A DNA stretch of 32,315 nucleotides. Source: an uncultured Spirochaetales bacterium. GTDB taxonomy: Bacteria; Spirochaetota; Spirochaetia; Sphaerochaetales; Sphaerochaetaceae. Position 1 is the first letter of the stretch, and each line of letters opens with the position of its first letter. The notes under the pieces were generated by a model. The model saw only the letters and a program-made list of their open reading frames with translations. It was not told the origin of the DNA and did no database searches. The position numbers and the translations under genes were made by a program. Shown here piece after piece: positions 13,266-28,505 of the stretch. The stretch spans positions 1-32,315 of the forward strand of contig CASDRU010000017.1 in the NCBI GenBank assembly GCA_949283305.1, read 5' to 3'.

Positions 13266-14306
13266 TCAGGACCAGATGAAAGGCTTTACCGGATATTCAT
13301 CCAGAACAAGGGAAAACCTTCTTTTCCTGTCCTTCGGGATGAACACCTCCTCATCCTTGAGATTGAAGAGTTTGAGAACATTGCCTCCAAAGAGATCCTT
13401 TATTCTCTCTTCATCAACACCATCCCTGACAAGATGATCCAGAAGCAGAAGAGTTCCTGCAAAGCCCGGAATTCCTCCTGCCCCTCTCTCCTTGTCTTCA
13501 AGAGTATGCGGAGCATGATCAGACTCAACAAAATCAATGAGCCCGCTTTTCAGTGCATCATAAACAGCATTCCTGTCGCTCTGAGATCTCAAGGGCGGAT
13601 TCATCTTCAGATATCTGTTTCTCTCCTTTGCATCAGAAAGAGTCAAAAGAGCATGATGCGCAGTTGCACCGCAGGAGATCCTGATGATTTTCCTTTCTTT
13701 TGCCTTTCTTATCTCATCAAGGGCAAGGCTTGTCGACACATGGCATATATGGAGATTTCCAGAAAATGAATATTTCTCGCAAAGTGCTATTATGTTCTTA
13801 ACACTCTCAGATTCAGATATTGCGGGCCGTGCATATGAGTGGCTTGACCAGTCAGATGGATCTTCCTTTGCGCTCTCAAAAAAGGACTCGTCCTCTGCAT
13901 GAACTGCAAGGACTCCTGAATAATTGAGAAGAGCAAGGTTCTTTATTATCTCTTCCTGCATTCTCCTGTCAGTTATTCCCATGTTTCCCGTGCTGTTTGC
14001 AAGAAACATCTTTAGTCCGATGACAAGAGGAAAGAGCTCAGAATGAAGGCTCACAAGATCAGACAGGCGCGAAATGTCATTGGTTATACCGGCATAAAGC
14101 GAGTATGATACGCGATGCTTTTTCACAGATGGAGATGCAAGAGCAAGACGGTCGAGAATCACAGAGCGCTCAGTGAGGGCCGGATCTGTGTTCGGCATGT
14201 CAAAGACTCTCGTAATCCCTGCCTTTCTTGCTGCAGAAAGCCCATGCTCTATCGTTTCCTTGCCACTCTGCTTCCAGTCCCTCAAATGCACATGCGGATC
14301 TATCAT
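13266..14306 (-). CDS. pyrC: Dihydroorotase, short form
   Basis: It cyclises N-carbamoyl-L-aspartate to dihydroorotate. The protein starts directly at the amidohydrolase metal site MIDPHVHLRDW (His5, His7). DMPNTDPALTE follows, then GLKMFLANSTGN near residue 99 (its Lys may be the carboxylated metal bridge), LHICHVSTSLALDEI with a metal His near residue 190, and VESDHAPHTLEDKERG near residue 258 with the catalytic Asp. The motifs are those of class I enzymes, but at 346 residues it lacks most of the flanking beta-sandwich that puts about 50 residues before HxH in typical class I proteins. The ATG overlaps the pyrDK stop by one base (TGATG), which fixes this short start. Confidence 0.93.
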   Translation of the reverse strand: MIDPHVHLRDWKQSGKETIEHGLSAARKAGITRVFDMPNTDPALTERSVILDRLALASPSVKKHRVSYSLYAGITNDISRLSDLVSLHSELFPLVIGLKMFLANSTGNMGITDRRMQEEIIKNLALLNYSGVLAVHAEDESFFESAKEDPSDWSSHSYARPAISESESVKNIIALCEKYSFSGNLHICHVSTSLALDEIRKAKERKIIRISCGATAHHALLTLSDAKERNRYLKMNPPLRSQSDRNAVYDALKSGLIDFVESDHAPHTLEDKERGAGGIPGFAGTLLLLDHLVRDGVDEERIKDLFGGNVLKLFNLKDEEVFIPKDRKRRFSLVLDEYPVKPFIWS

Positions 14307-15967
14307 CAGTACTCAGCTCCTGTCTGTTCAAGATATTCAAGAGAGAAGAAAGTGCCTTCCTTGCATGTGAGCTTTCCGCCACAGGAACACTCTCCGCACA
14401 TTCCGATTCCGCAAAGCGTCATCTTCTCCATTGAGAGGAATATCATGGAAGAAGGAACTCCCAGTGAAAGAAAATGCTCTGATGCTTTCTTCATCATGAT
14501 TGAAGGACCTACAATATATACTGCAGTGTCTTCATCCACATCATCTTTATCAAATGAGCAGATTACCCTTCCTGCAACTCCGTCATCGCTTACAATCCTA
14601 TAAGAGCCGAATGCCTTAAGCTCATCTTCAAGAAGCCCTTTCTTTCCACTCTCATGACTTGGAAGCCCAAGACGGATATCCATTTTCGTACCGTTTTCTG
14701 CAAGGCGGGATGCAAGCAGATTGAGAACCACTATTCCAGTTCCTCCCCCAAGCAGTATTGCCTTCTTTGTCTTCTTGACTTCAAGAGGGGCCCCGCAGAG
14801 TCCGCGTACATAAATATCATCACCGGCATTCACGTTCATGAGAGCAGAAGTGAATTCGCCTCTGACCTTTATTATGAAAGTAAGCGGATCGTTCTTTGCA
14901 ACAGAGAAAGGACGCTCTCCGTACTCAGGATGCCAGAGGAAGACAAACTGTCCTGCCTGGCACTCAGATTTTCCGTCCAGAGTGAGAATATAGGTGTCCG
15001 GGGAGTAAATATACTTGTCTATGATCTTATGCTTTACATATGTGATATTGCTCCTGTCCCTGCTCTGATATTTCCTGCTGTCTTCACCTTTGTTCTTTAT
15101 TGCAGAGAAGAATGCTTCATAGTCCTTCATGGCAACTGTTGCAGATGCAGATCCTACACCGACTATGTCAGCACCAGCACAGACCATGTTGAGCGCATCC
15201 TCATGTGTTGTAACTCCGCCCATGCCAAGAATAACCGGCTCATCTCCTATTGCCTCACGGATCTGACGGACTTTCTCAAGAGCAATTTTCTTCACCCATT
15301 CACCAGATGCGCCTCCCTTTCCTCCAAGCTTATTGAAGAGTATGGGATGCCCGTCATGATAATACTCTCTAGGACCGACTGTATTTATTGCGCTTATTCC
15401 ATCAGCTCCTGCCTCGATTGCAGCTTTTGCAATCTGAGCGATGTTGTCGACATTGGGAGTAAGCTTTACAAGAAGCATGCTCTTTCTTTCCTTATACCCG
15501 TTTGTTATGTATGAGACATATTCACGGACAGTATTCTCATCAGACCCGATTGATGCGCCGAAGCCTGCTGCCGCATGAGGGCATGAGAAATTGAGCTCAA
15601 GAAAATCAGCATAAGGGTCAAATCTTTTCACAAGAGAAAGGAAGTCTTCCTTTCTGTTTCCGGCAAGAGAGATGTTGAGAAGGGCTCTCATGCCCATGCC
15701 TTTCAGCCTCTTTATGTATTCTTCTGCCTTGTCAGCACCAGGATTCCTGAGCCCCACAGAATTTCCATAATCCCCCTCTTCTGGAGAAGTGACCACAGGG
15801 GGCCTGTTTCCTTCAGTCTCTGTTAGCTGAAAGCTCTTTGTGGTGATCACATCAACAGAGGGAACGCTCTTGTCGAAAAGACGGATCATGTCCTCTTTTG
15901 TAGTAAGGACTCCTGATACAGTAGAAAGCAGGATTCTGCCTTTTTTATGGTTTCCTCTTATTTCCAT
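14306..15967 (-). CDS. pyrDK: Fused dihydroorotate dehydrogenase: PyrD catalytic domain plus PyrK electron-transfer domain
   Basis: It oxidises dihydroorotate to orotate and passes electrons through FMN, an iron-sulfur cluster and FAD to NAD. Residues 1 to about 305 form an FMN barrel (NSVGLRNPG, ELNFSCPH with the likely catalytic Cys, VKLTPN, INTVGP, GMGGVTT, GVGSA). Residues from about 315 form a PyrK-like ferredoxin-reductase module: an FAD region GERPFSVAKND, a nucleotide loop LLGGGTGIVVLNLLASRL, and a C-terminal [2Fe-2S] motif CGIGMCGECSCGGKLTC. In most bacteria these are two polypeptides, PyrDB and PyrK. The start at 15967 overlaps the pyrF stop as TGATG. The frame is open to 16012 but that start lies inside pyrF. 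The substrate loop reads SCPH where dihydroorotate dehydrogenases usually have SCPN. The operon context supports orotate formation. Confidence 0.9.
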   Translation of the reverse strand: MEIRGNHKKGRILLSTVSGVLTTKEDMIRLFDKSVPSVDVITTKSFQLTETEGNRPPVVTSPEEGDYGNSVGLRNPGADKAEEYIKRLKGMGMRALLNISLAGNRKEDFLSLVKRFDPYADFLELNFSCPHAAAGFGASIGSDENTVREYVSYITNGYKERKSMLLVKLTPNVDNIAQIAKAAIEAGADGISAINTVGPREYYHDGHPILFNKLGGKGGASGEWVKKIALEKVRQIREAIGDEPVILGMGGVTTHEDALNMVCAGADIVGVGSASATVAMKDYEAFFSAIKNKGEDSRKYQSRDRSNITYVKHKIIDKYIYSPDTYILTLDGKSECQAGQFVFLWHPEYGERPFSVAKNDPLTFIIKVRGEFTSALMNVNAGDDIYVRGLCGAPLEVKKTKKAILLGGGTGIVVLNLLASRLAENGTKMDIRLGLPSHESGKKGLLEDELKAFGSYRIVSDDGVAGRVICSFDKDDVDEDTAVYIVGPSIMMKKASEHFLSLGVPSSMIFLSMEKMTLCGIGMCGECSCGGKLTCKEGTFFSLEYLEQTGAEY

Positions 15968-16845
15968 CAGATCTGAGCCTCTGAACAAAGCTTCTCTATC
16001 TTTGAAATACACAGGTCAAGCCAGTCAGACGGGACGCTGTCCTTCCACGGGCTTGTGAGTCCGCTTGATGAGTTTATTCTTGCAAGCTTATATGGATATG
16101 AGCATTTCTTGAGTGCATCAAGAACCTCAGGTGCTGTACCGCCCTGACTGCCGACTCCTGGAATAAGCATCGGAAGCTCCTTGTCATTGTAATAAAGAGC
16201 AATATCCTCAAGCTCCTTTATGTTTGTCGCACCTACAACACTTCCAAGACCTGATCTTGTATTCACCCAGTAGGCAAGCATATGTGCAACCTGCATGTAT
16301 ACAGGATAGATTTCCTTCTCGTCAACGCTGTCAAGCATGAGACGGTTCTGGAAATCCTTTGCTCCGGGATTGCTTGTACGTGTAAGAACATACACTCCCT
16401 TGTTCTCAAAGCAGAATGGCTCAACGCTGTCGAGCCCCATGTATGGAGATACGGTGACAGCATCACAGCCCCAGATGTCAAATGCCTCTTTTGCATAGTT
16501 CAGACTGCTTTTTGCAATATCTCCCCTCTTGCTGTCAAGGATGACAGGAACAGAAGGGAAATATGATGAGAGCATGTCAAGAACACGCGAAAGTGCCATG
16601 CTTCCTGAAAACTTGCCTTCCCTCGGGCGGTCAAGAACACTGTAAAATCCGAGATTAGGCTTGAAGGCCGCAACCTTTACGTTCCTGCTTGCCATCTTTG
16701 AAAACAGGGTGTCAAAGAATTTTACAATTCTTTCTCCGTCTTCCATTCCATCATAAGGAAGGCGGGAGACGACGGGATCAAGGCCCATGCAAACGATGTT
16801 TCCAGCACTTTCTGCTGAAGAATAAAGCTTATCTACGTAACTCAT
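15967..16845 (-). CDS. pyrF: Orotidine 5'-phosphate decarboxylase (type 2)
   Basis: It decarboxylates OMP to UMP, the last step of the pathway. The 292-residue length and sequence fit the longer type 2 group. The N-terminus has CMGLDPVVSRLP. The catalytic Lys-Asp array is LDSKRGDIAKSS near residue 101, followed by DAVTVSPYMGLDSV, and the phosphate-binding loop is near LIPGVGSQGG. Both junctions are one-base TGATG overlaps, with pyrE upstream and pyrDK downstream, so its translation is tightly coupled to its neighbours. Confidence 0.96.
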   Translation of the reverse strand: MSYVDKLYSSAESAGNIVCMGLDPVVSRLPYDGMEDGERIVKFFDTLFSKMASRNVKVAAFKPNLGFYSVLDRPREGKFSGSMALSRVLDMLSSYFPSVPVILDSKRGDIAKSSLNYAKEAFDIWGCDAVTVSPYMGLDSVEPFCFENKGVYVLTRTSNPGAKDFQNRLMLDSVDEKEIYPVYMQVAHMLAYWVNTRSGLGSVVGATNIKELEDIALYYNDKELPMLIPGVGSQGGTAPEVLDALKKCSYPYKLARINSSSGLTSPWKDSVPSDWLDLCISKIEKLCSEAQI

Positions 16846-17540
16846 CAGACCTCCCTTTTAAATCCTCTTTCCTCGCCCCAGGTAAACGGGCTCTCTCTCC
16901 ACTTTGCAAGTTCCTGGCTCTCCTTCTCATTAATATATCCTATGTTCTTTGCAACAGAGAGCATCAGGTCATATGAGAGGATTGTATGGAATGCGCACTT
17001 CGGATCAAGATCATCAAATGCCTTCTGGCTGGCATCAAGACCATATGTGAAGATAGCCAGACATGTCGAGCAGTTTCCATCAGCTTTCCTGATTGCATCA
17101 ACAGCCTTGATGCTTGAAGATCCTGTTGAAATAAGATCCTCAATTAAAAGAACCTTTGCCCCATGATAGCTTGAATCCTTTCCAAGGCCCTCAATCTGAT
17201 GTCCAAGTCCATGGTCCTTGCTTGATGAGCGGACATAGGAAAGAGGCTTTTTGAGCCTGTCAGCAAGTGTTGTCGCATGCGGGATTCCTGCTGTTGCTGT
17301 TCCTGCGATATTGTCCATATCGAGATTGAGACACTCAATCATATCTGAAAATGCATCGCAGATCAGTGCGCGGTATGATGCAGATGAGAGAAACTGCCTG
17401 TTGTCGTTGTAAATCGGCATTCTGTATCCGCTTGCCCACTTGAACGGGTTATAGACATCAAGCCTGATTGCTCCAAGCTCAAGGGCACCGCGTGCAAGCT
17501 GTGTACCATAGTAATTTGTTATTTCGCTTAAAGTTTTCAT
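16845..17540 (-). CDS. pyrE: Orotate phosphoribosyltransferase
   Basis: It joins orotate and PRPP to make OMP. Visible are the N-terminal ALELGAIRLDVYNPFKWASGYRMPIY orotate-binding region (given here as two parts: ALELGAIRL and FKWASGYRMPIY), the flexible loop KDHGLGHQIEG, and the PRPP motif VLLIEDLISTGSSS near residue 130. The frame is open to 17624, but that start lies inside pyrBI. I chose the ATG at 17540 because GAGGA sits just upstream, giving a normal 231-residue protein. The gene begins 25 bases after pyrBI and is coupled to pyrF by TGATG. Its substrate PRPP is made by prs, also in this window. Confidence 0.95.
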   Translation of the reverse strand: MKTLSEITNYYGTQLARGALELGAIRLDVYNPFKWASGYRMPIYNDNRQFLSSASYRALICDAFSDMIECLNLDMDNIAGTATAGIPHATTLADRLKKPLSYVRSSSKDHGLGHQIEGLGKDSSYHGAKVLLIEDLISTGSSSIKAVDAIRKADGNCSTCLAIFTYGLDASQKAFDDLDPKCAFHTILSYDLMLSVAKNIGYINEKESQELAKWRESPFTWGEERGFKREV

Positions 17541-17565
17541 ATAGTCCTCATTATATCCTGTATTT

Positions 17566-19149
17566 TTATTTTTTGCTCCAGATTTCCTTGAAGGAATGCA
17601 CTTTTCCGCAATATGCACATTCATACTGCCCGTCAGGAGTCCTCAAGAACTTTGCTGCAACACCCTCATTGTTTGCCGGATGTGAGATGCATGCCTCATT
17701 CTTGCAGCAGAGATCAGAGAAATTGTAGATCCTTGGAGGAAGATGAGTGCGGTACTTTTTATAAACGCTCTTTTCCTTGATTATATTAAGTGTACAGTGC
17801 GGTGCTATTGCCGCAAGTCTCTTCAAATCAGAGCGTGTAAATGAATACTCTCCCGGACGGAAGATTATGCCTTTGAAAAGTCCGTCAGAGCCACGGCTGA
17901 CCCACTCTCCTCCCTTTCCTTCATCAAGATTGAGAATTGAGGATATAAGTCTCATGTGGTTTCTTATCTCACCAGGCTCATCTCCCTTGCATATGTGGTC
18001 AATTACAATTCCGTTTTCAATCGGATTGACACCCTCGCTGTAGACCTTAGTCTCGTTCTTCTTCTTAGAAAGGTCCACCTCGATGATATATTCCTCGCTC
18101 TCATAGTCCTTCTCTTTCTCGCATGATCTGAAATCAGAACCGATTTTCCCTGCAATCAAAGATAAGAGCACCATGCGCACATACATGCCGTTTATGGCCT
18201 GTCGCTCCCATGCGTTGAAGCTTGTCCTGTCAAGGAATGTCGGAATTGTAGGATGCTCCTTATGGCGGGGAAGCGGATGATAGAACTTTGTTCTGCTGTC
18301 GACTTTGTCCATGAATTCAGGTGCAAATGTGATTGACTGACGCAGAATTTCCTGCTTCTGCAGAATTCTTTCTCCCATTCTCTCAAGCTGAGGGCGGGTG
18401 AAGTACCATTTGAGAGCAACATCCCCTGATTCGATGTATTCCCTGATTGAAGAGAAGATTCTCACCTCAAAGCCGTTTTCCTTCATAATCTCTATATAGG
18501 AATCCGGCATCATGAGCTCTGCAGGAGCAACCAGATCAACCTTGACTTTATCAAAGACCTTGAGCCCGTTTGCCTTGCTGTGAACAGTCCTTCCATGGTA
18601 GAGGTCTCCAACCAGTGCAAGGTGGATGGAGCTATAATCCATGTTCTGGTCTTCAAGGAATGTGAATTCATCTAAAAGCTCCTGAGTCGGATGCTCATGC
18701 TTTCCATCCCCTGCATTTATGAATGCCGGCTTATATTTCAGAGCGTTTCTCTCTGCGTACTCGTTGCATTCCTCTTTCAGCCAGGTGGTCAGGCCCTCAA
18801 CCTTGCTTCGCACGATGAAAATCACATTAGAATACCCTGAGAGCATGTTGAATGTGTCTGCATAGCTTTCACCCTTGTTTATGCTACTGGACTGACATAA
18901 AAGCTCACTGACCTTCACATGATGGAACTTTGCAGCATTGCGGAATGATTCCTTCGTCCTTGTGCTGTCTTCCAGGAACACTTCATAAATCCCGAAATCC
19001 GGATCTGCTATCCTGAAGCTGTCCATAACACTCTCATCGCCTGAGATTATGGCCTTCTTCAGCTCCATTGTCTTGTCAAAAAGATATCTTCTCTCTTCAA
19101 TTGAGAAGTCCTCAATGACACAAAGGCTTCTTCCTTTAAATCCGCTCAT
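17566..19149 (-). CDS. pyrB: Aspartate carbamoyltransferase, catalytic and regulatory chains fused (PyrB-PyrI)
   Basis: It condenses carbamoyl phosphate and aspartate, the first committed pyrimidine step. Residues 1 to about 345 are the catalytic chain: carbamoyl phosphate site DSTRTKESF near residue 62, GDGKHEHPTQELLDE near 150, and FYHPLPRHKEHPT near 290. After a charged linker, residues from about 360 are the regulatory chain: an allosteric domain with NGIVIDHI, then a zinc domain with CKNEAC near 483 and CAYC near 512 (CX4C and CX2C). Fused PyrBI proteins are known from Thermotoga and some spirochaetes. The intact zinc cysteines suggest that the regulatory part still docks. AGGAG at 19159-19155 precedes the ATG, directly after an intrinsic terminator. 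Confidence 0.95.
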   Translation of the reverse strand: MSGFKGRSLCVIEDFSIEERRYLFDKTMELKKAIISGDESVMDSFRIADPDFGIYEVFLEDSTRTKESFRNAAKFHHVKVSELLCQSSSINKGESYADTFNMLSGYSNVIFIVRSKVEGLTTWLKEECNEYAERNALKYKPAFINAGDGKHEHPTQELLDEFTFLEDQNMDYSSIHLALVGDLYHGRTVHSKANGLKVFDKVKVDLVAPAELMMPDSYIEIMKENGFEVRIFSSIREYIESGDVALKWYFTRPQLERMGERILQKQEILRQSITFAPEFMDKVDSRTKFYHPLPRHKEHPTIPTFLDRTSFNAWERQAINGMYVRMVLLSLIAGKIGSDFRSCEKEKDYESEEYIIEVDLSKKKNETKVYSEGVNPIENGIVIDHICKGDEPGEIRNHMRLISSILNLDEGKGGEWVSRGSDGLFKGIIFRPGEYSFTRSDLKRLAAIAPHCTLNIIKEKSVYKKYRTHLPPRIYNFSDLCCKNEACISHPANNEGVAAKFLRTPDGQYECAYCGKVHSFKEIWSKK

Positions 19150-19161
19150 AGCTACTCCTAT

Positions 19162-19188
19162 AAAAAAAGCGACCCTGAAAAGAGTCGC
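19162..19188 (-). terminator. Intrinsic terminator immediately before pyrBI (attenuator)
   Basis: GCGACTC (19188-19182) pairs with GGGTCGC (19175-19169) over seven base pairs (one T-G), with a TTTTCA loop, followed by seven T (19168-19162). The pyrBI ATG is only 12 bases further on, so no promoter fits between. A promoter and a leader ORF lie upstream, which makes this an attenuator rather than a simple end-of-gene terminator. Confidence 0.88.
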
Positions 19189-19194
19189 ATGAAT

Positions 19195-19260
19195 TCAAAA
19201 TAAAACAGGAATGTCCAGATTGTCACAAGAAATAATTTCTGTCGCAAAGTGTCTGTACAT
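19195..19260 (-). CDS. Putative 21-residue leader peptide of the pyr operon
   Basis: The ORF starts at ATG 19260 with AGAGGA (19270-19265) at good spacing and stops at TGA 19197-19195, six bases before the terminator stem. The peptide begins MYRHFATEII and ends PVLF. Its last codons lie in a U-rich stretch (GTTTTATTTTGA). A ribosome at the stop codon would cover the 5' arm of the terminator. A second ATG four bases after the stop opens an 11-codon frame (19190-19158) running through the hairpin to a TAG in the pyrBI Shine-Dalgarno; it could be read by re-initiation. The arrangement matches the enterobacterial PyrL/pyrBI attenuator in layout, not in peptide sequence. Confidence 0.65.
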   Translation of the reverse strand: MYRHFATEIISCDNLDIPVLF

Positions 19261-19294
19261 ATATTCCTCTGACTGAAAATTTTAAACAATCTGG
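19215..19294. repeat. Separated 9-bp inverted repeat spanning the pyr promoter and leader
   Basis: CCAGATTGT (19215-19223) and ACAATCTGG (19286-19294) are perfect inverted copies about 70 bp apart, centre to centre. One lies in the promoter spacer and one in the leader ORF. It could be a paired operator or chance. Only transcripts reading through from upstream would contain both arms as RNA. Confidence 0.35.
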
Positions 19295-19308
19295 CAATAT
19301 TTTGTCTA
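19279..19308 (-). promoter_or_regulatory. Candidate promoter of the pyr operon
   Basis: TAGACA (19308-19303) and TAAAAT (19284-19279) are 18 bp apart, each one base from consensus. The predicted transcript would start near 19272 and run straight into the leader ORF Shine-Dalgarno. The promoter begins just six bases after the stop codon of the BY-kinase gene. Confidence 0.6.
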
Positions 19309-19313
19309 TAGCC

Positions 19314-21695
19314 TTATTCCTTTTTTCCTCTGGCATTCTCATCATTCTCGATTTCAGAGAGATAGCTCTCGAAATTCCTTATCACGCTGTGAACGGTTTT
19401 CTTTCTTCCCTCACTGTTGAACTCAGGACGCTTCATCTCCCCTTTATATGCCAGCGGAGCATCATAGAAAGAACTCTTATCTATGACCTTTTCTCTCATC
19501 TTAAGGCTCTTCTTGTACATGCTGGCAGCACTCCTCATGCTCTTCACATAGTGCTTCTCTGCGTCTTCAGAAGCATTTCCATAGCCATATGAATAGCCAT
19601 AGCGGTTTGCAGAAATCGATGTCGCACTTAAAGGAAGGCCATTTAGGACAGCTCCCAGTATGCTTACATTTGTCTGCTCAAAATCAGACAGGAGCTCTTC
19701 AAGCTCTGTTGAAAGAGATGCACAGGAACGAGCAACCACGATGACCTCTGGAACGCTTCTGACGATTGTGAGAATCTCGGAAGCATACTGCAGCGGAGGT
19801 GCATCAAAGAATATGAAATCATAATACTTTGAGAGGTTGGAAACAATGCTGTTGAGTGTATCTGTCTGGATGATGACAGAAGGAACAGCAACAGGGCTTC
19901 CTGCACCGATTACATGGAAGGTCTCAAGCTTTTCATAAGGAATCCTTATAACATCCTTTTCCGAGCATCTTCCGCAAAGAAGGTCAGATATTCCCTTGTC
20001 AGAATGCGTGATCTCAAGAGTGTTTTCAATATTGGGCCTTCTTAAGTCCATGTCTATGACAAGGACACGCTTGCCTGAAAGAGCAAGTGAGTATGCTATG
20101 TTTAAAAGCACTGTGGTCTTTCCGTCGCTCTTTCCCGGCGAGCATACTGTTATTGCATGAGAGCCGAGTCTCTTGCCGTACATGATTGCACTGGCAATGT
20201 GCTTATAACGCTCACTCATGAGGCTCATCGGATTGTTCACAAGCTCGATAACAGTTCTCTTTCCTTCTTCCTTCTGCTTCTTCTCAAGAGGAATCCAGCC
20301 CAGAACAGGAGTGTCGTTGCCGATGATTTTCTGCAGATCATCCCTTGTCTTTATTCTCTTGTCTGTAATTGAGAGCAGGATTGCAGTGCCACAGCCGATG
20401 AAGATTCCGAGCATTCCTCCAAGAAGAAGCATCTGGGCTTTCTTCGGGCTTACGGGCTCATCAGTTGCATCAGCGGCGTCTATTATCTGCACAGTGTTCG
20501 TTATTGATGCGCTTATCAGCTCTGTCTCGCTCTGCATCTCCATAAGCTTGAGTGCAAGGGCTGAATAGACATCCACCTTGCTCTGAAGGCTCACCATCTC
20601 GCGCTCAAGATCCGGCATTGTCTCAAGTTCCAGATCAAGAGATGCAAGGCTTTCGTCTATGACATCAATCTTAGTGCTTGTGATGATGTATGATCTGTAA
20701 TATTCAGTGTAAAGAGGATCTTCAATCCCGTTTTTCTCTCTCAGAATATCAATCTCAGCTTCTATCTGATGCTCTACATCCTGGTTCCTGTTTGAAAGGA
20801 CGTAATATCTTTCCATCTGACTCTGAGAAAGAGAGTTTGAAGTGCCCTGAGAGCCCTGGGATGCCTGAAGGAGATCATAAAGAAGTATTTCTGCATAGGA
20901 GGTCCTGTAATCTGAAAGAAGATTATCAAGAGTTGAAGAAGATACTCTTAGAAGTGATATATTGTTGCTCTTGTCCCTTGCGTCAGCCATCTCCTTTTCA
21001 AGAGGGGACCTTACAAGAGAATAATAGCTGAGCTGCCTCAGAATCTGTGTAGCTCTCTCACTGAGCTGAAGCGTCTGATTGTCTTTCTGGAAATTGCTCA
21101 GAGCAAGGGAAGCATCAGCAAGATTTTCCTCAGTCACGGCAATCTGGGATTCGATGAAATCAAGCTGGCTGTATGCGCTTGACTTGGACATCTCCAGCAT
21201 TCTGTTCGAAAACTGCTCTACAAGAGCGGAAACAAAATCCTCGGCAAATGCAGGATTGCTGTGCTTGAATGAAATCTCGACGAAGTTCGTATCCTCGACA
21301 ACTGATATATTCACACCAAGACGGAGATCTTCTGCCTTTATATCCAGCTCAGAATATTTTTCTCCGTTTTCAGAAACGTAGTTATCCAGATCAAGAGAAT
21401 CAAGAGCCATCTGGAATGTGCTCTTTGATGTGAGGATCTCTATGTCATTCTGGATATCCGTTGATTGACCTGAGAGAGAAAGGAGTGATGAGAGATCACT
21501 CGATTTCTCACTGGACTGCACCATTATGCGCTCAGTCACCTCATAAACTGGTGTGGCATTTAAAAGATACACTACAACAAGCAGCACGAAGACCAGAAAG
21601 GAAAGGGCCACCATCCATATACGGGAGATAACCGCCTTGACAAGATCCATTATGCTTATCTCTATTTCCTCACTCTTTTTCACTTCTTCACTCAT
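19314..21695 (-). CDS. Polysaccharide co-polymerase fused to a tyrosine autokinase (Wzz-BY-kinase)
   Basis: Such inner-membrane proteins set chain length and drive export of capsule or exopolysaccharide. The layout is: a short cytoplasmic start, TM1 (about 30-50), a large periplasmic Wzz domain with long coiled-coil helices (about 60-410), TM2 near residue 425, then a cytoplasmic BY-kinase. The kinase shows Walker A CSPGKSDGKTT near 522, Walker A' RVLVIDMDLRRPN near 545, and Walker B FIFFDAPPLQ near 625. A tyrosine cluster YGYSYGYG near 702 probably takes autophosphorylation, although it is followed by about 85 more residues instead of ending the chain. Its ATG overlaps the stop of the SLBB gene by four bases, so the two form an export pair. 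Confidence 0.92.
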   Translation of the reverse strand: MSEEVKKSEEIEISIMDLVKAVISRIWMVALSFLVFVLLVVVYLLNATPVYEVTERIMVQSSEKSSDLSSLLSLSGQSTDIQNDIEILTSKSTFQMALDSLDLDNYVSENGEKYSELDIKAEDLRLGVNISVVEDTNFVEISFKHSNPAFAEDFVSALVEQFSNRMLEMSKSSAYSQLDFIESQIAVTEENLADASLALSNFQKDNQTLQLSERATQILRQLSYYSLVRSPLEKEMADARDKSNNISLLRVSSSTLDNLLSDYRTSYAEILLYDLLQASQGSQGTSNSLSQSQMERYYVLSNRNQDVEHQIEAEIDILREKNGIEDPLYTEYYRSYIITSTKIDVIDESLASLDLELETMPDLEREMVSLQSKVDVYSALALKLMEMQSETELISASITNTVQIIDAADATDEPVSPKKAQMLLLGGMLGIFIGCGTAILLSITDKRIKTRDDLQKIIGNDTPVLGWIPLEKKQKEEGKRTVIELVNNPMSLMSERYKHIASAIMYGKRLGSHAITVCSPGKSDGKTTVLLNIAYSLALSGKRVLVIDMDLRRPNIENTLEITHSDKGISDLLCGRCSEKDVIRIPYEKLETFHVIGAGSPVAVPSVIIQTDTLNSIVSNLSKYYDFIFFDAPPLQYASEILTIVRSVPEVIVVARSCASLSTELEELLSDFEQTNVSILGAVLNGLPLSATSISANRYGYSYGYGNASEDAEKHYVKSMRSAASMYKKSLKMREKVIDKSSFYDAPLAYKGEMKRPEFNSEGRKKTVHSVIRNFESYLSEIENDENARGKKE

Positions 21696-24311: not shown

Positions 24312-25053
24312 TGGCCCTTTTTATGTCAGGATATGAAGAAGGGGATGATGATATCACAATAAGCCCAGCCTCATCTTCTGTCACTTCGTTTACCGCCCCA
24401 GCTTCTTCTGCAATCAAAAGCCCTGCTGCCGCATCGTAAAGCTGGAGATAGCGCTCATAGTATGAGCACGCTCTTCCAGATGCGACATAAGAAAGGCTTA
24501 AAGCCGCGCTGCCGATGCTTCTTATATCCGAAAAATAATCGTAGATTCTTCTGAACTCTTTGAGATAAGAATCAAGCTCACTGTGTTTTCTGTGTGGAGG
24601 AACGGCTATGCATAATCCGTGTTTTGAATCAAGAGAGGAAACACTTATTTTCTTTCCGTTCAAAAACGCACCATTGCCGCGCTGGGCAAAGAATGTCTCG
24701 CCTCGGCACACATCCCTGACAACACCGAAGAGCGCCTCTCCTTTTTCCATGTAGCAGATTGAGATTGTGTAGGAAGGAAAAGTGTTCATGAAATTCACAG
24801 TCCCGTCAATCGGGTCAATAACCCATAGCGGATCATCTGTTATTTTCCCGCCGCTTTCCTCAGCATATATGCTGTCAGATGGAAAAGATGTGGAGATTGC
24901 GGATATTATGATCCTCTCAGCCTCCTTATCAGCGAGAGTCACGTAGTCATTCTCTTTCTTGCTCTCAAATGCCTTCCTTTCTTCAGTGTGAGAAAGAAGA
25001 AAGGAGGAAGCCATATCTGCTGCCTTGAAGGCGCATTCTATTTTCTCTTTCAT
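24298..25053 (-). CDS. Inositol monophosphatase family protein
   Basis: This Mg2+-dependent, Li+-sensitive sugar phosphatase superfamily acts on inositol phosphates, 3'-phosphoadenosine 5'-phosphate or fructose 1,6-bisphosphate. The metal-binding signatures are IYAEESGG near residue 65, WVIDPIDGTVNFMN near residue 80, and a second site LQLYDAAAGLLIAEEAGA near residue 210. The Tyr-Asp in the latter replaces the more common Trp-Asp. At 251 residues it is of normal size. Its ATG overlaps the stop of the acidic protein gene by four bases (ATGA). The exact substrate cannot be told. Confidence 0.9.
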   Translation of the reverse strand: MKEKIECAFKAADMASSFLLSHTEERKAFESKKENDYVTLADKEAERIIISAISTSFPSDSIYAEESGGKITDDPLWVIDPIDGTVNFMNTFPSYTISICYMEKGEALFGVVRDVCRGETFFAQRGNGAFLNGKKISVSSLDSKHGLCIAVPPHRKHSELDSYLKEFRRIYDYFSDIRSIGSAALSLSYVASGRACSYYERYLQLYDAAAGLLIAEEAGAVNEVTEDEAGLIVISSSPSSYPDIKRAIEGV

Positions 25054-28000
25054 CTGGATCTTCTTATAAGCTCCTCGCCTATTATCGATACAATCTTCCA
25101 GTTTGATGGGGAGAAGTCATCCTTGGAGAAACTTTCTATCTTCGCACTCTCCACCTCAAAATCCTTATTAAGCGACAGAATCAGGGCATTCCATTTGTTT
25201 TTTCCTTTACTGTACATCACAGCCCCTGCATTGTTTATCAGCTCGCTGGTCCTCAATTCATCATGGACTCTTCCTTTTGCAAGAAGAACTGAAAGATCAT
25301 ATTCGAAGATGCTGAACATCTTGTCCTTCCCGTCCTCTCTCTGAGCTTTCCAGCAATTTGCCACAATCTGATTGAAGTAATCAAGAACGCTTCTGTCTTC
25401 ATATTCAAGGAAATTGTGGAAGACACCAAGATTTCCGTCCAGCTTTCTTACAATCTGGCGGATGAGATCTGAATATCTGGGATTATTGAGATCAAGAGTG
25501 CTCTTTCTGTTTTCTGTTTCGTCTCCTCTGGAAACAACCTCATCAGCACTCAGATGATCGTCCTTTCCAAATTCAAGCACTACTTTGTCTGCACTCTCAT
25601 CTTCTTTTTCATCCTCGACAGTCTCATCCTCAACTATCTTTTCAACATCCTCTTCTGCAGAAGAAGGAAGACTTTCGGATATCATGACCTCGCTTATGTT
25701 TCCGTTTTCAGCAGAGCCTGAAGCTTCTGGTCCTTCGCTCTCCACTTCATTTATATACTCAAGGCTTACGTTCTTCTCATCCTCTCCAAATGAACCAAGC
25801 CTCTGGTCTTCTTCTGTAAGCTCGAATACGTTCTCGCTCTCTTTAATGGAAAGACCATTATGCTCTTCTTCCTCTAAACTGTCATGCAGTGCAGATGGAT
25901 TTCCATCCTCGTTTTCAAATCCCGGATCTTCTTCATCAGAGCATTGTGAACCATCATCCTGCATGCCTGATTCTTCTCCATCAAGCTCATCAGCAGCTTC
26001 AAAGCAAGCATCCTGCTTTACGTCTTCACCATATTCAATTCCTGATGATATGCCGTCTTCCCTTTCAAGATCTGATGTATCTTCTTCATCAGGATATTCT
26101 GGATAATCCTCCTTCTCATATGGTTCTTCATCAGATGGACTGTCAGAAAAAGCATCATGCGGCTCTGGTTCTTCATTGTTTTCAATTCCTGATGATATGC
26201 CGTCTTCCCTTTCAAGATCTGATGTATCTTCTTCATCAGGATATTCTGGATAATCCTCCTGCATGTCTGATCCTTCTTCATCCACAGGTTCAGCACCTGC
26301 TTCAGAAGGAATTTCTTCCTCTTTTTCAAAGCCTGAATCATCATCTTCAGCATCAGAGTGTTCTGAATAATCATGCTGCATATCTGATTCTTCATTTTCA
26401 ATTTCTGATGATGGCTCACCTTCCCTTTCAAGATCTGATGTATCTTCTTCATCAGGATATTCTGGATAATCTTCCACCGCTTCTTCTTTTTCTGAATCAT
26501 CTTCTCCATCAAAGGAAGCATTTTCTTCATCCTGATCTGGATTTGAAACATCTTCATTCATAGCCAGAGGCGATGGTGCAAGATTGTCCTTACGGGCAAG
26601 AAGGGCCTGCTCAAGAGGATCTGAGTAAGAATACTCATCCTTCCTCTCCTCCTCCGCATCAGAGTCAAGGATATCGAAGAAATTGAGCTGATCCGGATCA
26701 TTTTCCTCATCCAGCTCATCGTCGGCCTGATTTACATCATCGCTTTCTTCCTCAAACTCATCGAAAAGATAGGATTCCATATCATCTTCTTCCGCAAGGT
26801 CTTCCTCTTCTTCATCCTCATCATCATATGAGCCAAGATCCACACCCTTATAATCATCATTGAGGTCCTTGTTCTCAAGCTCATTTTTGATGAAGTCCAT
26901 ATCCTCGTCGTACTGCCTTATATACTCATTCCTCTTTTCTTCATCAAGGGACGGAAGAGTGACATCTGGAAGAGGAATATCCTCATCAATTGCTGTATCT
27001 TTTTCTTCCTCCTCATCGCTTTCAATCTCGTCAAAGAATGATGATTCATCAGATAAGACTCCATCATCATCGGAATAAGGAATATCTTTTTCTCCTTCAT
27101 CCTCATCAAAGATGTGAGTAATGTCATCCTCATCCTCATCATACTCTTCCCCAAGCAGCATGCGGTACATGTCACTCCTTTTCATGCTGGAATCAGAAGC
27201 CATGATCAGAGCACATGTGCTTACAGAAAAGCAGTCGATTCCTTTCTTCTCAAGCTCTGCATATCCGTCAGGATCCACATAAAGAATCTTATGACCCTCC
27301 TTTGCTTTCTCCTGCATTTCAGCTTCTCTTCTGTCCAGGCGGATGTTGTAAAGCTCTGCATTGAGCACCGCATTAATCTCATCAAGGGAAGAGAGGGCAA
27401 TGACATCTATTTTCTGCCCTCTGAGGCTGTATACTCCCTCTACATCTGTTGATGAAAAGAGGGAGGCAAGTGCTCTTTCTGTGGCCTCATCACGGCGTGA
27501 ATACAGATTCATCCTCGTTGCAAGCATCCTGATTGAACAAGAGAGCATGTATTTGCCGACAAAAGTGAAATACATTCCGGCAAAGCGGATGAATGGATAG
27601 CATGTTGAGAGCCAGAGGCCTTTTTCAAAAAGATAGGAATAGAGATCTGTGTCGCTAGAAGGGTCAAGAGCGAAAAATGACAGGTATTTCTCGCTTAAAG
27701 ATGAAGAGAAGTCCGGACGGAAGAGATCAAAGTCATCCCTCAGGCCCTCAAGTCTCTTTGACTCCTGGTAAATATCGCTGTCGCGGAAGATTATGGCTTT
27801 TGCATCCTCCTCTGAAAGGCTGTCAAGCCTTCTTGCCCTGATCCGCTGCTCAACCTTCTCCTTGAATCTGGTGCTGTCCTCAGACAGCCTGTCTATCGCA
27901 TCCAGGCTGTATGTAGCGAGATTGAAAGCTTCATTGACAAGAGAAGCGCTCGACATTGAGAAAAGGCTTTGAACTGTATCCTCTTCTCTCTCTATATATG

Positions 28001-28505
28001 CATGTGTCAGATATGCGTCGTTTTCTATGTTTTTTCTGCTTTTCTCTTCGGGGAAGAACTGTGAATAAAGAGACTTTCTGTATTCAAGCACATTGTCCCT
28101 TGATATCTTTCCATCATGCATGAAGAGCACTGCAAGGGAGTCAATATAGCGGGAAAGCTTCCTCACCAGGTCCTCTGAAAGAGAAAGTACACGCTGCCAG
28201 TCAGCTTTCCTTATCTGTCTGTCAAGGCTTGTTTTCTTATAAAGGCTGGACTCGACAATGCTCTGAAGGAGAACAGGAAGAAGGCGAGATGAGAGCATGC
28301 TCTTCTCATCCGTGGAGTTTTTCACTACCTTCCTTTCTTCCCAGGATGCCATCTTGATCATCTCAAGCGGATGATAAAGGCTTGCAATTGAGGCGATATT
28401 GCTGATATCAAGCTTTATATAATTCTTTGCCTCAGCAATATTCTTCTCACATTTTTCACGTGAGATATCCAGATAGGGAAGAAAATCTTCATCAAAAGTA
28501 TTCAC
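25050..28505 (-). CDS. Very long acidic protein with internal repeats, unknown function
   Basis: I do not recognise this 1151-residue protein. Residues 1 to about 460 look mainly alpha-helical and of ordinary composition (DNA 28505-27125). Residues about 462-1000 are extremely rich in Glu, Asp and Ser, low in hydrophobics and probably disordered, with repeats built on DYPEYPDEEDTSDLERE. Residues about 1020-1151 return to a folded-looking composition (VVLEFGKDD, then YSDLIRQIVRKLDGNLGVF). No signal peptide or TM helix was seen, so it is probably cytoplasmic. The start is GTG with AGGAG at 28517-28513. It is coupled to the inositol-phosphatase-like gene by ATGA. The intact long frame, despite repeats, argues that it is expressed. 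Confidence 0.85.
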   Translation of the reverse strand: MNTFDEDFLPYLDISREKCEKNIAEAKNYIKLDISNIASIASLYHPLEMIKMASWEERKVVKNSTDEKSMLSSRLLPVLLQSIVESSLYKKTSLDRQIRKADWQRVLSLSEDLVRKLSRYIDSLAVLFMHDGKISRDNVLEYRKSLYSQFFPEEKSRKNIENDAYLTHAYIEREEDTVQSLFSMSSASLVNEAFNLATYSLDAIDRLSEDSTRFKEKVEQRIRARRLDSLSEEDAKAIIFRDSDIYQESKRLEGLRDDFDLFRPDFSSSLSEKYLSFFALDPSSDTDLYSYLFEKGLWLSTCYPFIRFAGMYFTFVGKYMLSCSIRMLATRMNLYSRRDEATERALASLFSSTDVEGVYSLRGQKIDVIALSSLDEINAVLNAELYNIRLDRREAEMQEKAKEGHKILYVDPDGYAELEKKGIDCFSVSTCALIMASDSSMKRSDMYRMLLGEEYDEDEDDITHIFDEDEGEKDIPYSDDDGVLSDESSFFDEIESDEEEEKDTAIDEDIPLPDVTLPSLDEEKRNEYIRQYDEDMDFIKNELENKDLNDDYKGVDLGSYDDEDEEEEDLAEEDDMESYLFDEFEEESDDVNQADDELDEENDPDQLNFFDILDSDAEEERKDEYSYSDPLEQALLARKDNLAPSPLAMNEDVSNPDQDEENASFDGEDDSEKEEAVEDYPEYPDEEDTSDLEREGEPSSEIENEESDMQHDYSEHSDAEDDDSGFEKEEEIPSEAGAEPVDEEGSDMQEDYPEYPDEEDTSDLEREDGISSGIENNEEPEPHDAFSDSPSDEEPYEKEDYPEYPDEEDTSDLEREDGISSGIEYGEDVKQDACFEAADELDGEESGMQDDGSQCSDEEDPGFENEDGNPSALHDSLEEEEHNGLSIKESENVFELTEEDQRLGSFGEDEKNVSLEYINEVESEGPEASGSAENGNISEVMISESLPSSAEEDVEKIVEDETVEDEKEDESADKVVLEFGKDDHLSADEVVSRGDETENRKSTLDLNNPRYSDLIRQIVRKLDGNLGVFHNFLEYEDRSVLDYFNQIVANCWKAQREDGKDKMFSIFEYDLSVLLAKGRVHDELRTSELINNAGAVMYSKGKNKWNALILSLNKDFEVESAKIESFSKDDFSPSNWKIVSIIGEELIRRSR
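26034..26260 (-). repeat. Two identical 80-bp direct repeats inside the acidic protein gene
   Basis: Bases 26034-26113 and 26181-26260 are identical over 80 positions and lie 147 bp apart, exactly 49 codons, so both are in frame. They encode the EDYPEYPDEEDTSDLERE unit and part of its flank. Identity at silent positions suggests recent duplication or gene conversion. Confidence 0.93.
26420..26471 (-). repeat. Third, shorter copy of the same repeat
   Basis: These 52 bases are identical to 26057-26108 and 26204-26255. More diverged copies (DYSEHSDAED and SQCSDEEDPGF types) can be read between and after the exact ones, so the array is a gradient of old and recent duplications. Confidence 0.88.

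Follow-up and report, generated by a model that had tools for sequence, protein, structure and literature searches.

The window analysed here is a stretch of 32,315 nucleotides (contig C17) from the genome of a gut spirochaete (1.49 Mb, 96% complete). Its PyrBI protein shares 99% identity with that of Candidatus Ornithospirochaeta avicola, and the source genome is nearly identical to that organism. On the minus strand, the window carries a pyrimidine operon in the order pyrBI (fused), pyrE, pyrF, a pyrD-pyrK fusion and pyrC, in which pyrBI is the first gene under control, with its ATG at 19149 (Table 1). PyrD and PyrK are joined in a single protein of 568 amino acids, with NF005574 matching residues 31-292 and NF000796 residues 329-563, both under the curated cut-off. 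The upstream neighbor of pyrBI is a gene encoding a Wzc-like kinase, which ends at 19314. In L001 and in other members of the genus, the kinase gene overlaps the -35 box, ~170 nt upstream of pyrBI: its TAG stop codon supplies the first bases of TAGACA. Elsewhere in the window, positions 25050-28505 encode a large acidic protein of 1151 amino acids with a repetitive middle section.

Table 1. Features of the pyrimidine operon and its leader, in the order in which they lie on the minus strand.
Feature	Position	Strand	Description
promoter TAGACA-18-TAAAAT	19279..19308	(-)	-35 TAGACA 19308-19303, 18-nt spacer, -10 TAAAAT 19284-19279
leader Shine-Dalgarno AGAGGA	19265..19270	(-)	near the predicted transcript 5' end, ~19272
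leader ORF	19195..19260	(-)	21 codons, MYRHFATEIISCDNLDIPVLF; ATG 19260; stop TGA 19197-19195
U-rich tract	19189..19210	(-)	putative UTP-sensitive pausing zone; U-rich letters 19210-19197
second small ORF (MRLFSGSLFL)	19158..19190	(-)	ATG 19190-19188, passes through the hairpin; not a conserved feature
intrinsic terminator (putative attenuator)	19162..19188	(-)	8-bp stem, 4-nt loop, seven T
pyrBI Shine-Dalgarno TAGGAG	19155..19160	(-)	read from the sequence
pyrBI	17566..19149	(-)	fused aspartate carbamoyltransferase catalytic/regulatory subunit; NF009916 over cut-off, E 4e-246
pyrE	16845..17624	(-)	orotate phosphoribosyltransferase; TIGR00336 over cut-off
pyrF	15967..16845	(-)	orotidine-5'-phosphate decarboxylase; TIGR02127 over cut-off
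pyrD-pyrK fusion	14306..16012	(-)	dihydroorotate dehydrogenase + electron-transfer subunit
pyrC	13266..14306	(-)	dihydroorotase; NF002668 and TIGR00857, both under curated cut-off

An earlier note on this DNA had described a promoter, a 21-codon ORF led by a Shine-Dalgarno sequence, a U-rich tract, a terminator and the pyrBI start packed into this interval, and all of these were found, between 19308 and 19149 on the minus strand. The leader stop codon does lie six nt before the stem, as proposed (TGA at 19197-19195, with the stem beginning at 19188). For the terminator, the seven T were recovered as described, but the stem, which had been given as 7 bp, is longer: the hairpin GCGACTCT-TTTC-AGGGTCGC at 19188-19169 has 8 pairs, including one G-U, and a folding energy of -11.8 kcal/mol. 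The promoter is the top match within the 5 kb scanned. However, promoter-like matches occur in this region in no more than a chance number (8 found vs 7.3 expected), and folding of the leader in the window is only mildly stable (z = -1.8). Because the window alone was only suggestive, we compared the upstream regions of pyrBI in relatives.

The sample was drawn from 48 genomes of the genus, the remaining family and the phylum, yielding 130 distinct pyrBI upstream regions; in the remaining family, pyrBI itself is carried by 119 of 139 genomes. A terminator was called ahead of pyrBI in 121 of the 130 regions, and 105 of the regions with a terminator also have a start codon led by a Shine-Dalgarno sequence 40-100 nt upstream of the stem. 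This leader start was chosen from the Shine-Dalgarno sequence and start codon alone, blind to the frame, and a frame was counted as open to the stem if no stop codon came earlier than the last 12 nt ahead of the stem. By this measure the leader frame is open in 100 of the 105 relatives, compared with 27 and 35 for the +1 and +2 frames and 37.6±4.3 for shuffled leaders (maximum 52 in 300 rounds). The 105 sequences are related and their counts are not independent, and 78 diverged representatives, one sequence per diverged cluster, yield the same result, with the leader frame open in 73 and the shifted frames in 17 and 27. These data indicate that an open leader frame reaching the terminator stem is under selection. 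As a control, the same pipeline applied to E. coli recovered pyrL and its terminator.

Other parts of the leader are conserved as well. Most relatives have a GGAGG-type leader Shine-Dalgarno sequence, and the distance from start to stem is 68±10 nt. A family-wide promoter, with a TAGACA or TGGACA -35 box and a (TGn)TATnnT -10 box, stands far over shuffles (mean score in relatives 9.2 vs 7.4±0.9), and the extended -10 TG is present in 80 of 104 relatives vs 21%. The leader stop falls just before the stem in 53 relatives, inside the hairpin in 27 and past the hairpin in 18, with no stop in the sequence in 2; in each of these arrangements, a ribosome would either lie over the 5' arm or pass across it. 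The case for the element is thus made by the comparative tests of frame and promoter rather than by the window alone, and at the level of sequence these tests confirm that the combination of leader ORF and terminator is more than chance. The comparison with relatives that the earlier note had called for came out in its favor: across the family, the leader retains its start, its Shine-Dalgarno sequence, a frame that reaches the terminator and that terminator as well, and the peptide drifts.

We propose that the element is a UTP-sensitive, ribosome-coupled transcription attenuator of pyrBI-E-F-DK-C, of the E. coli pyrBI/pyrE type, with a probability of roughly 0.8. This appears to be the best reading because of the U-rich tract, the content of the operon, the absence of PyrR (see below) and the position of the leader stop. 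Several features of the E. coli systems bear on it. At pyrL, low UTP leads to pausing of the polymerase and the ribosome prevents the hairpin (PMC10135430), and the regulation of pyrE is set by where the rph stop lies with respect to the pyrE hairpin (PMC2784333). Bringing a stop codon closer to a terminator, from 28 bp to 5 bp upstream of it, lowered termination from ~90% to <10%, and termination was maximal with the stop more than ~27 nt from the terminator (PMC4824070). At six nt before the stem, the leader stop in the window is well within the distance at which a ribosome behind the polymerase suppresses termination.

The anatomy, its conservation, the U-richness and the selection that keeps the frame open as far as the stem can be read directly from the sequences compared; from them we infer that transcription terminates at the hairpin, that the polymerase pauses, that UTP is the signal and which way control runs. 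Transcription would start a few bases ahead of the leader Shine-Dalgarno sequence. When UTP is plentiful, RNA polymerase would outrun the leader ribosome across the U-rich tract, the hairpin would form, and transcription would end ahead of pyrBI. When UTP is scarce, the polymerase would pause in the U-rich tract, allowing the leader ribosome to close the gap. A ribosome on the last codons or on the stop codon, six nt from the stem, would place its footprint over the 5' arm; with this arm covered, the hairpin could not form and the operon would be transcribed.

T makes up 60% of the 20 nt immediately upstream of the stem in the window, 52% in the genus subset and 47% in relatives, vs 27% at control terminators. 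The 87 controls are other terminators flanking pyrBI loci, almost all of them within this genus, and the test treats related sequences as independent. U-richness also bears on an alternative in which the leader has to be translated but what is sensed is general coupling or the state of growth (through ribosome supply or ppGpp), and not UTP. The anatomy does point to ribosome dependence more directly than to UTP dependence, and in the genus labelled g16 some leaders show no strong U-richness. We nevertheless consider a general signal unlikely, given the placement of the element before a pyrimidine operon, the U enrichment exactly upstream of the stem, and the absence of the element from carA, where the layout was reported in only 2 of 18 upstream regions (L180 and L192), which we read as chance calls in upstream sequence.

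A simpler possibility is that the hairpin is a mere 3' terminator of the upstream kinase operon, that the ORF is there by chance and that pyrBI has its own promoter elsewhere. The kinase gene does end 125 nt before the stem, and ORFs of ~20 codons are common by chance alone. This explanation seems very improbable in view of the leader frame kept in 100 of 105 relatives and of the promoter, which in most relatives lies between the kinase and the hairpin, upstream of the leader. Moreover, several relatives with no kinase-like frame just upstream retain the element.

Equally improbable, in our view, is amino-acid attenuation or nascent-peptide arrest, in which the leader would sense, through its sequence, a small molecule or an amino acid such as aspartate. 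One clade does have a common peptide ending, IVSE, but leader peptides differ from clade to clade, no amino-acid doublet in the relatives' leaders is well over expectation, and no residue is universal. Between close leader pairs, substitutions are spread evenly over the three codon positions (128/131/133; pN/pS 0.61). Seven leader peptides gave no match in Pfam at E<=10, and none was found in NCBIfam, although such very short queries limit the power of these searches; within that limit, the earlier impression that the peptide is unlike PyrL was borne out. We therefore do not assign the leader to the PyrL family on its sequence, and propose that the peptide sequence itself may have no role.

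PyrR attenuation is a common form of pyrimidine control in Gram-positives, and five genomes of the genus (L161-L165) have a true PyrR, but control of the hairpin by a protein or ligand that binds the RNA (PyrR, or the ligand of an unknown riboswitch) has very little to recommend it, as the other 133 of the 138 genomes, including that of the window, have no PyrR over cut-off, Rfam finds no family over the window and the PyrR-bearing relatives, a complement search upstream of the hairpin 5' arm in relatives gave antiterminator candidates below shuffles, the conserved thing is a reading frame rather than a structure, and in L162, the one PyrR genome whose gene order was read, pyrR is divergent and adjoins uraA, not pyrBI. 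In the genome of the window, the best PyrR hits score 19.5 and 18.5 bits (cut-off 138). Thus, the claim that the operon has no pyrR gene extends to the whole genome searched, at this cut-off.

Two further ideas were rejected. First, PyrR and the leader might have been mutually exclusive. The five PyrR genomes (L067-L071) have no Shine-Dalgarno sequence, but in those examined a TAGATT -10 box is followed 9 nt later by an in-frame ATG, the start of a frame that ends near the stem; they thus keep a possible leaderless ORF, and the contrast failed. Second, the earlier note had suggested that a second ATG might carry re-initiating ribosomes through the hairpin. An ATG frame does run through the hairpin in 25 of the 53 leaders that stop before the stem. 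However, among ATGs near the stop, 29 of 34 have a frame that passes through the hairpin, vs 909 of 1060 of all positions (86%), so that open ATG frames show no enrichment in relatives. Since open frames are equally frequent at any position, the second ATG is not marked as selected, and this part of the proposal was dropped.

The element varies across the group in several ways. In a subclade comprising the genus labelled g21 and L066-L071, the Shine-Dalgarno sequence is missing and an ATG lies 7-10 nt after a TAGAtT -10 box; the ATG frame ends near or in the stem, and the +1 frame stops early. Leaders of this subclade thus appear to be translated leaderless. In L133, L136 and L138, an upstream frame of >100 codons ends 3-7 nt before the pyrBI terminator, and in L138 this long frame matches the kinase. 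Five genomes from another family (L144-L148; 2.8 Mb, each assembled in one or two contigs) carry MIYSLVTISCKFCISRLF or a sequence very like it, with its end immediately ahead of the stem. In the PyrBI tree, their proteins nest in the clade of the window's family, so the operon and leader would either be of common origin or have moved together. A few relatives (L127, L130 and L112) are without the element, and the leader-terminator layout is also absent for eight PyrBI sequences placed farther away in the tree.

The layout resembles several known attenuators to different degrees. With pyrBI of E. coli and Salmonella it has in common the promoter, the short 5' leader, the ORF led by a Shine-Dalgarno sequence, the U-rich tract and the terminator, as well as the gene controlled and the absence of both an antiterminator and a regulator protein. 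However, the pyrL leader is 44 codons long and runs through the hairpin, whereas that of the window has 21 codons and stops six nt before it; the peptides are unrelated, and pyrB and pyrI are fused in the spirochaete. E. coli rph-pyrE does have a stop codon that precedes the stem by a few nt, with T-rich sequence in the gap, but there the ribosome comes from a full upstream gene rather than from a dedicated 21-codon ORF; the long frames of L133, L136 and L138 are of this kind. Thus, the earlier comparison with the enterobacterial pyrBI layout holds for the type of attenuator but not for its geometry in the window, which is nearer to rph-pyrE. A frame running through the hairpin is found in about 18-20 relatives. 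Bacillus-type PyrR attenuators likewise place a premature terminator before pyr genes, but the genome of the window has neither a PyrR gene nor a PyrR RNA motif, and a reading frame is conserved instead. Attenuators of the trp/his type also combine a leader peptide with a terminator, but the spirochaete leader has no regulatory codon run and no antiterminator.

With no sequence match to PyrL, a different stop position, and distant PyrBI relatives that have no such layout, it is plausible, on grounds of parsimony, that the element evolved independently of that in E. coli. We lean slightly towards a broader reading, in which UTP-sensitive, ribosome-coupled control of pyrBI arose independently in spirochaetes and came to include both E. 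coli geometries (a stop before the stem, as at pyrE, and a frame through the stem, as at pyrBI), between which the element would have moved freely, together with replacement by a full gene and, in a subclade, apparently leaderless mini-ORFs. A literature search combining spirochaetes or T. denticola with pyr attenuation found no report, but the main attenuation reviews were outside the search and a prior description is possible. If the proposed attenuator is real, close ribosome-polymerase coupling would be in use for metabolic sensing well outside the enterobacteria, in a phylum for which we found no study, and the element would be a candidate means of controlling pyrimidine genes where PyrR is missing. 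The relatives would also offer about 100 naturally occurring variants, differing in stop position, spacing and U-tract, with which to test the distance at which a ribosome defeats a terminator.

Other pyrimidine genes in these genomes were also inspected. The leader layout was not seen by inspection upstream of the uracil permease gene, uraA. The uraA leader of L219 and L220 contains CAGAGAGACCGG, followed later by a T-run, and looks like a PyrR box, though Rfam gives no match. In six genomes of the genus (G003, G030, G031, G032, G039 and G020), pyrBI is present and a search for carA gave no match at E<=1e-40, which raises the question of where their carbamoyl phosphate comes from unless the assemblies are incomplete. 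Upstream regions of carA (~200 nt; L189, L168-L183, L187 and L192) have no leader ORF and carry repeated GTTGCA/TGCAAC words over ~60 nt; similar words are found before uraA in L200, L212 and L219. From their sequence, these repeats may be the operator of some regulator.
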